IMG/VR virus record: IMGVR_UViG_3300020171_000099
Location: 1-30,757 of that record
Length of the DNA: 30,757 bases
Direction: 5' to 3' (one strand)
Source of the DNA: a virus
This document shows positions 28,110-28,971 of the stretch, one piece after another (position 1 is the stretch's first letter; each line of letters starts with the position of its first letter). The notes beneath the pieces were generated by a model. That model saw only the letters and a list, made by a program, of their open reading frames with translations, was not told the origin of the DNA and made no database searches. Position numbers and translations under genes: made by a program.

Positions 28110-28168
28110 AGGATTAATTTTTTATATAATTCTTTAATAATTCCATATATATTCTTGATCTTTGTTTT

Positions 28169-28195
28169 TACCATATAAATCAAATAATTATGGTA
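28169..28195. promoter_or_regulatory. Inverted repeat TACCATA-N13-TATGGTA
   Basis: Perfect 7-base arms with a 13-base spacer that itself holds a TAAATCAA site (28176-28183). It lies about 60-85 bases before the small terminase start, between that gene and the other palindromes. It could bind a dimeric regulator or form a hairpin in a leftward leader RNA. Confidence 0.45.
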
Positions 28196-28211
28196 CAATT
28201 TATAAAATTGT
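28195..28211. promoter_or_regulatory. Inverted repeat ACAATTT-ATA-AAATTGT
   Basis: Perfect 7-base arms with a 3-base centre, directly next to the TACCATA repeat. Its size is typical of a phage operator. The region is AT-rich, which raises the chance of random dyads. Confidence 0.4.
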
Positions 28212-28218
28212 CTATATT

Positions 28219-28247
28219 ATATTAAGATTTTTCCTAATATAAATCAA
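28219..28247 (-). promoter_or_regulatory. Possible leftward late promoter before terS
   Basis: TTGATT (28247-28242) and TAATAT (28224-28219) are 17 bases apart, with an alternative TATAAT 20 bases away. The -35 box sits in the palindrome at 28239-28254, as at the scaffold copy. A start here would give a leader of about 100 bases before the small terminase gene. Box quality is modest. Confidence 0.35.
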
Positions 28248-28254
28248 GATTTAT
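28239..28254. promoter_or_regulatory. Palindrome ATAAATC-AA-GATTTAT (copy 1), operator-like
   Basis: Identical in 20 bases (28238-28257) to the copy at 21859-21878. It is also related to the repeated TAAATCAA words at 28176, 28343, 28353 and 28502, and inverted at 28558-28565. Recurrence at two gene-block starts points to a shared trans-acting regulator. Confidence 0.5.
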
Positions 28255-28342
28255 TATTATTTTTAATAGATTTTAATGATTTATTTTAATTTTTACTGTT
28301 TTTCTTAATTTATTATTTATAAAGATTTCAATAGGTTATTAG

Positions 28343-28370
28343 TAAATCAAAGTAAATCAAAGTAAATCTA
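28343..28370. repeat. Tandem 10-base repeats with TAAATCAA core
   Basis: Two exact copies of AGTAAATCAA and a third that diverges at the end, followed by short AGATAATAA repeats to about 28400. The array carries the same word as the palindromes. It may be iterons for a replication or regulatory protein. No initiator gene is visible in the window. Confidence 0.65.
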
Positions 28371-28420
28371 TGATAATTAAAGATAATAAAGATAATAAAG
28401 ATATAATTGAGTATAACTAC

Positions 28421-28467
28421 TCTTAATCGCCTTTAACCAATATTGATTATTATCTTAATCGCCTTTA
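28421..28467. repeat. 15-base direct repeat flanking/inside rightward promoter
   Basis: TCTTAATCGCCTTTA occurs at 28421-28435 and 28453-28467, 32 bases apart (about three helical turns). The second copy fills most of the promoter spacer. A protein binding both copies would cover the promoter, so this is a candidate repressor or activator pair. Confidence 0.6.
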
Positions 28468-28471
28468 TAAT
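28443..28471 (+). promoter_or_regulatory. Rightward sigma-70-type promoter
   Basis: TTGATT (28443-28448), a 17-base spacer, and a perfect TATAAT (28466-28471). This is the best promoter match in the window, and it points to the rightward genes. Transcription would begin near 28478, just before the foldable leader and the hammerhead. Confidence 0.65.
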
Positions 28472-28498
28472 CTTAATTAATATGAGAATTAAATTAAA

Positions 28499-28753
28499 TA
28501 ATAAATCAAGAGCCGCAAGGGCAATGGCGGCAGTAAGTAAACCCAATACAAAACATCTTGATTTATTAAGCCCCAGCAAATAGCAGGGGAATTTGCCTTC
28601 CAAGTCTGGCAGAGAACAAAAAATCGCAGGATGGATTAAGCCAGAACAAAAACGGAGCCTGAGACTTTAAGGGTCTTAAAAGATTTCTCCAAGGAATGAG
28701 AAGAGCGCAAACAACCTCACTCTGAACCGAAAGGTAAGGGTAGAATAGAGGTT
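28499..28753 (+). ncRNA. Structured leader RNA upstream of the hammerhead
   Basis: This stretch is clearly less AT-rich than the DNA on both sides and has no convincing ORF. By eye it folds into a chain of helices. The first is a 13-base-pair stem 28499-28511/28556-28568 enclosing a GCCGC/GCGGC hairpin (28512-28531). Next are a CCCC/GGGG hairpin (28571-28589) and a TCTGGC/GCCAGA stem (28605-28610/28640-28645). Then come GGAG/CTCC (28654-28657/28687-28690) around an AGAC/GTCT hairpin, and AACCTC/GAGGTT (28713-28718/28748-28753) around an ACC-GAAA-GGT hairpin with a GNRA loop. A pseudoknot between the first hairpin loop (AAGGGCAA) and TTGCCTT is possible. I recognise no family. Confidence 0.55.
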
Positions 28754-28761
28754 AAGTGAAA

Positions 28762-28818
28762 TATGTGTCTGATAGATTTTAACTATCACTGATGAGATTT
28801 TAGTAATCGAAACACATA
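28762..28818 (+). ncRNA. Hammerhead ribozyme, type III
   Basis: All core parts are present in the right order. Stem III 5' strand is TATGT plus G (28762-28767), and the cleavage triplet is GTC at 28767-28769. Stem I is TGATAG/CTATCA (28770-28775/28783-28788) with a 7-base loop. The invariant CTGATGA is 28789-28795. Stem II is GATT/AATC (28796-28799/28805-28808) with a 5-base loop, the invariant GAAA is 28809-28812, and stem III 3' strand is CACATA (28813-28818). Cleavage is predicted between 28769 and 28770. Stems I and II are closed and stem III is open, so it is type III. Its last base is the first base of the AGGAGGG ribosome site of the next gene. Hammerheads are known from phage genomes. 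Confidence 0.92.
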
Positions 28819-28830
28819 GGAGGGCAAAAC

Positions 28831-28971
28831 ATGAACAACCAAGAAAAAAATAGGACACAAACTAAACCCAATCTTATTATAAAAAATAGAACAATTATTT
28901 TAATAGCAAAGAAAGCAGAGCAAAAAGAACAAAAAACAATAACCAGATTGCAAAAACTTTTAGAAAAATAA
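28831..28971 (+). CDS. First rightward gene: 46-aa basic peptide
   Basis: The ATG follows a perfect AGGAGGG site (28818-28824), which begins inside the hammerhead's last stem. The product is basic and polar with a short Ile-rich middle and a Lys/Gln-rich helix at the end (TITRLQKLLEK). No family is recognised. Its likely control by the ribozyme and the strong site are better evidence of coding than the sequence itself. Confidence 0.6.
   Translation: MNNQEKNRTQTKPNLIIKNRTIILIAKKAEQKEQKTITRLQKLLEK

Follow-up and report, generated by a model that had tools for sequence, protein, structure and literature searches.

The window analysed here is the whole of a 30,757-base virus contig from IMG/VR. 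The genes identified to the left of position 28110 (terminase small and large subunits, portal, tape measure) point leftward, and past an intergenic stretch a set of small genes points rightward, encoding 46 (from 28831), 98, 145, 68 and 56 amino acids. The 46-residue reading frame gave no match in Pfam or PHROG, and a search for relatives of the rightward proteins found none. A protein with a sigma-70 region 2 is encoded by the phage at 30362-30757, where the contig edge truncates its gene. The intergenic stretch between the divergent gene blocks (28110-28480) is very AT-rich, with AAAGTAAATC present twice and AAAGATAAT repeated, and could contain operators or a replication origin. The motif TCTTAATCGCCTTTA occurs there in two exact copies (28421-28435 and 28453-28467), 32 nt apart; the pair looks like a regulator binding site, and its second copy overlaps the spacer and the -10 element of the promoter-like site at 28443-28471. 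That site was found with a consensus scan that returned 7 matches against 6.3 expected by chance, and from it we infer a promoter. Because the phage encodes a sigma-70 region 2 protein, phage-specific promoters are possible and a scan for host-type promoters may mislead.

Directly before the first rightward gene lies a hammerhead ribozyme (Table 1). The base A28818 is at once the last of its stem III and the first of AGGAGG (28818-28823), and the ATG follows at 28831. Since ribosome site and ribozyme adjoin, no transcript from an upstream start can include the former and lack the hammerhead. Both a complete type III hammerhead in a phage leader and the end of stem III on the first base of the ribosome site had been claimed in a preliminary description made from the sequence alone, and both readings hold.

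Table 1. Features of the leader, the ribozyme and the first rightward gene (positions in the window)
Feature	Position	Strand	Basis or remark
Sigma-70-like promoter candidate, TTGATT-17-TATAAT	28443-28471	+	consensus scan; putative leader start near 28478
Structured leader, separable by cleavage	28478-28769	+	start putative; 2',3'-cyclic phosphate end at 28769 predicted
Anti-Shine-Dalgarno segment UUUGCCUUCC	28592-28601	+	predicted pairing with 28819-28828
Alternative anti-Shine-Dalgarno partner in the free leader, GAAG..GCAAA	28701-28711 (approximate)	+	minimum-energy fold of 28478-28769
Hammerhead stem III, 5' strand UAUGUGU	28762-28768	+	direct reading, motif search, RF00008, phage covariance model
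C17	28769	+	cleavage between 28769 and 28770 predicted from model alignment position
Stem I hairpin, 6 bp and 7-nt loop	28770-28788	+	direct reading, motif search, phage model
Core CUGAUGA	28789-28795	+	direct reading, motif search, phage model
Stem II hairpin, 4 bp and 5-nt loop	28796-28808	+	direct reading, motif search, phage model
Core GAAA	28809-28812	+	A28812 is A15.1 and pairs with U28768
Stem III, 3' strand ACACAUA	28812-28818	+	direct reading, motif search, phage model
Shine-Dalgarno AGGAGGG	28818-28824	+	direct reading; ends 6 nt before ATG
First rightward gene, 46-aa reading frame	28831-28971	+	direct reading

The stretch 28762-28818 on the plus strand is a complete type III hammerhead. 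Its core holds CUGAUGA, GAAA and the UH dinucleotide at the cleavage site (U28768-C28769), with GUC as the cleavage triplet, and its topology is that of type III, with stem III open, stems I and II closed by loops and the elements in the correct order. Direct reading and motif search agree on the stems: stem I pairs UGAUAG (28770-28775) with CUAUCA (28783-28788) around the loop AUUUUAA, and stem II pairs GAUU (28796-28799) with AAUC (28805-28808) around UUAGU. The six and four pairs first given for stems I and II stand, and stem III, for which six had been counted, has seven when the U16.1-A15.1 pair is included. The stems are AU-rich, and stem II contains a single G-C pair. Loops I and II could pair at four positions (UUAA with UUAG), but across the phage set described below loop complementarity equals that of shuffled sequences, and a tertiary contact between the loops is not distinguishable from chance as a feature of the family. 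A motif search of both strands identified this as the only type III hammerhead in the window. In first-order Markov simulations, a loose version of the motif arose 0.012 times per window and an equally good one in 0 of 1000 windows.

Covariance models were used to compare the element with known families. The Rfam model for type III hammerheads (RF00008, Hammerhead_3) matches over its full length at 39.8 bits (E 4.4e-9), although the Rfam gathering score of 48.5, which is an annotation threshold rather than a structural feature, is not reached. The element shares with RF00008 its topology, core nucleotides, GUC triplet and stem lengths, and differs from it in its AU-rich stems and its lower score. 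The 48.5-bit cut-off is uninformative for phage type III hammerheads, given that the best RF00008 match per record in 16 other phage records scores 18.0-47.3 bits, in every case below the cut-off. A separate covariance model was built from 44 other phage hammerheads, with the window left out, and scores the element at 49.7 bits (E 2.7e-11) with every pair intact. Base-pair covariation within the phage set is partly circular, since the sequences were chosen for having stems. Fast cmscan searches did not report the window's hammerhead, including at E values up to 10, despite the 39.8 bits that it obtains with the full model; one of the runs applied the gathering score, and in the others the element was probably lost to the speed filters. 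Surveys that use fast filters may therefore overlook AU-rich phage hammerheads.

The nearest relatives of the terminase have 45-49% identity in IMG/VR and 45% among named phages, where phage D6E is the best. No hammerhead was detected in the IMG/VR records of the three nearest terminase relatives, and these records may be fragments, such that conservation in the lineage cannot be demonstrated. No close relatives of the window were found in phage records, plasmids or genome contigs. A pattern search with the leader hairpin returned 11 stretches.

The placement of the ribozyme, which the preliminary description considered unusual, turns out to be common. A scan of IMG/VR that fixed stem III to one of three sequences and left the downstream context free yielded 75 distinct type III hammerheads for which enough sequence was available downstream; hits were thinned to less than 0.9 similarity, and some may share ancestry. 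An earlier pattern had included AGGAGG and was thereby biased towards this placement, and its loci were excluded from the placement statistics. An ATG that opens a reading frame of at least 40 amino acids lies 8-40 nt past stem III in 87% of the 75, compared with 16% of random positions on the same strand, and the median distance from stem III to ATG is 20 nt. When a Shine-Dalgarno sequence is also required, the values are 60% and 4.6%. An earlier subset of 40 gave 87.5% against 16%. A further 33 pattern hits that fail the stem criteria were intended as decoys, but many of them resemble hammerheads with a short stem II, which makes them an unclean negative control. Going by annotation, PaP3 is an exception, with about 95 nt separating its hammerhead-like match from the annotated gene that follows.

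Many of the phage hammerheads lie in the middle of operons, 13-60 nt past the previous gene, and some phages have runs of two to four type III hammerheads, several of which precede consecutive genes (L189, L201, L203, L157, L122). Twenty of the downstream genes were tested and show no common function; they include genes for an ATPase, a PAPS reductase, an anti-restriction protein and an HNH endonuclease, and are mostly unknown. Because the hammerheads occur within operons or before consecutive genes, their common factor is the gene start and not the function of one gene. A position just before a gene start is thus the rule for phage type III hammerheads, recurring in unrelated phages. A limited literature search found no statement of a general placement rule in the papers that could be searched. 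There is an individual precedent in the hammerhead of the haloviruses HF1 and HF2 (HHphage), which lies 13 nt before the start codon of the gene that opens an early operon (Perreault et al. 2011, PMC3088659). For HF1/HF2, a mapped transcript 5' end and the cleavage site lie no more than three nt apart (PMC3088659). Both HHphage and the present element belong to tailed prokaryotic viruses and sit a short distance ahead of an operon's first gene, with 13 nt in the former and 12 nt between stem III and ATG in the latter. HHphage is, however, a core variant, whereas the present element has a canonical core and, in addition, a leader segment complementary to the ribosome site. The suggested link of self-cleavage to early gene expression is conjectural for the window, where the rightward genes are small ones of unknown function together with the sigma-factor-like gene at the contig end.

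The hammerhead probably serves as the 3' end of the leader of the rightward operon, with self-trimming giving a defined, leader-free translation start. An upstream-started transcript that reads into the 46-residue gene would carry the ribozyme and would cleave itself, most likely during transcription, between 28769 and 28770, which is the position of the 5' end at 28770 given in the preliminary description. Removal of a structured leader of about 290 nt would leave an mRNA that has a 5'-OH at its start and, immediately ahead of the ribosome site, two short hairpins. The outcome would be a translation start that is defined, free of its leader and probably more stable, with a fixed context for the ribosome site, as in the engineered insulator RiboJ; it is cleavage in the cell and this benefit that we infer. 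That cleavage would remove a structured leader, as had been claimed, agrees with structure prediction: the fold of 28480-28840 has a z score of -4.07 against shuffled sequences, and that of the leader alone has a z score of -2.8. RiboJ, placed before a ribosome site in E. coli, raises transcript levels about twofold and protein levels two- to tenfold (PMC6206723). Like the window's hammerhead, RiboJ and other engineered insulators precede a ribosome site and trim a 5' leader. RiboJ is engineered and has an added 23-nt hairpin (PMC7536230), whereas the element in the window is natural and has no extra hairpin past the core. The AU-rich stems are the main caution for the predicted activity; riboJ57, an engineered hammerhead that is likewise AU-rich, did not function in the context where it was placed (PMC7536230).

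It is possible, although unlikely, that the ribozyme also gates the ribosome site. In RNA that is still uncut, a 10-bp helix adjoining stem III would form between the leader segment UUUGCCUUCC (28592-28601) and the ribosome site GGAGGGCAAA (28819-28828) and keep the gene off. If the ribozyme cuts while the RNA is being transcribed, either ahead of this pairing or in place of it, the leader would come away and the gene would be turned on. Modifiers of cleavage, such as Mg2+, a protein or a ligand of the leader, would then set expression. Such a reading is chemically compatible with self-trimming, since gating adds a step to trimming. The preliminary description had proposed that release of the leader changes access to the ribosome site, for which it named no mechanism; the helix supplies a candidate for one, and the freeing of the site itself is doubtful, as discussed below.

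The helix is predicted as 10 consecutive pairs, one of them G-U, with probabilities of 0.7-1.0 that come near 1. Opening the ribosome site is predicted to require 10 kcal/mol when the transcript is intact and 2.3 kcal/mol for the cut mRNA by itself. Sequestration of the Shine-Dalgarno is predicted stably for transcript starts from 28440 to 28590 and with three different 3' ends, and is gone for starts at or beyond 28600. The hammerhead fold is compatible with the anti-Shine-Dalgarno helix and is predicted to lie 0.3 kcal/mol above the best fold of the whole leader; a competing hairpin is predicted to be 0.3 kcal/mol better than the hammerhead. With 200 nt upstream included, the predicted gain in access on cutting is 8.9 kcal/mol. 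A gain of at least 5 kcal/mol is reached by none of 44 other phage hammerhead genes and none of 75 control genes, and 25 other genes of the contig gain at most 1.9 kcal/mol, such that 0 of 144 comparison genes reach 5. In the free leader, the anti-Shine-Dalgarno segment is predicted to pair mostly internally, near 28701-28711, and this re-pairing would offer a route for release.

Against gating, the helix was spotted post hoc in a single sequence and is suggestive only, given that there is no relative in which covariation could be sought; its p value among shuffles of the leader is about 0.005, and among 419 real stretches of equal length, 4 do as well. The cleavage products are also predicted to be about 19 kcal/mol more stable together than apart, leaving the leader bound to the mRNA, such that cleavage alone need not open the site. 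Cleavage would therefore help only if it occurs before the site is captured, or with ribosomes or helicases, and it is doubtful that it actually frees the ribosome site. The helix is absent from other phage hammerheads and hence is not their general function; as a general feature of phage hammerhead leaders it was rejected, with a mean gain of 0.41 against 0.12 kcal/mol (p 0.07). A SAM-III (SMK box) riboswitch was likewise rejected (19.3 bits against a cut-off of 45, E 0.17).

Engineered hammerheads that sequester a Shine-Dalgarno function in bacteria, and the switches of Wieland and Hartig (2008) resemble the prediction for the window in that the Shine-Dalgarno is held in the uncut RNA and the hammerhead cuts it loose, both as cited in PMC5052635. 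The window differs from those switches in having about 160 nt between its anti-Shine-Dalgarno segment and the ribozyme downstream, and in that this segment is predicted to remain bound after cutting. In the 2008 design, the Shine-Dalgarno reportedly sits within a ribozyme stem and a short strand leaves. To our knowledge, hammerheads that sequester a Shine-Dalgarno are so far only a design of synthetic biology. Should the segment in the window be functional, that design would have a natural counterpart: the leader would hide the first ribosome site of the operon until the ribozyme cuts, and cleavage, possibly sensed by the structured 160-nt domain from the anti-Shine-Dalgarno to the ribozyme, would turn the gene on. 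We hold this full scheme to be tentative and rather doubtful.

Improbably, the leader itself could be the product, with the ribozyme generating the 3' terminus of a stable RNA, about 290 nt long, that acts separately. The leader is more structured than shuffled sequences (z -2.8, or -4.1 with the hammerhead), but it matches no Rfam family and no similar DNA was found in phage or plasmid records, and many other phages simply have the tail end of the preceding gene in front of the hammerhead. An inactive match, whether arisen by chance or by decay, would fit the AU-rich composition, the weak stem II and the absence of conservation evidence in the lineage, but is very improbable given the 0 of 1000 simulated windows, the E value of 2.7e-11 with the independent model and a position that is the same as that of other phage hammerheads.

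What hammerheads do in prokaryotes and their phages has been described as an open question (PMC6155905). The occurrence of 87% of the 75 elements 8-40 nt before a start codon indicates that their role concerns the 5' end and the translation start of single mRNAs, which can be tested with reporters. The placement rule is usefully quantified here; a leader that hides a Shine-Dalgarno would be new if shown, and the kind of ribozyme is already known.

Clusters of prophage hammerheads that flank single genes have been described (Perreault et al. 2011, PMC3088659). These prophage clusters are like the window's hammerhead in lying at gene borders in phage transcripts, with variable gene identity, and unlike it in number, given that the 30.8-kb contig has a single hammerhead. 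On one phage contig (L117, 1442-3492), one type III and three type II hammerheads lie within about 2 kb on the same strand. Five of the pattern hits (L066, L142, L149, L153, L155) are hammerhead-like elements that combine a strong stem I with hardly any stem II, and these also lie before gene starts. In these five, the loop of stem I and the region of stem II appear complementary (ATGGCA with TGCCA, for example).
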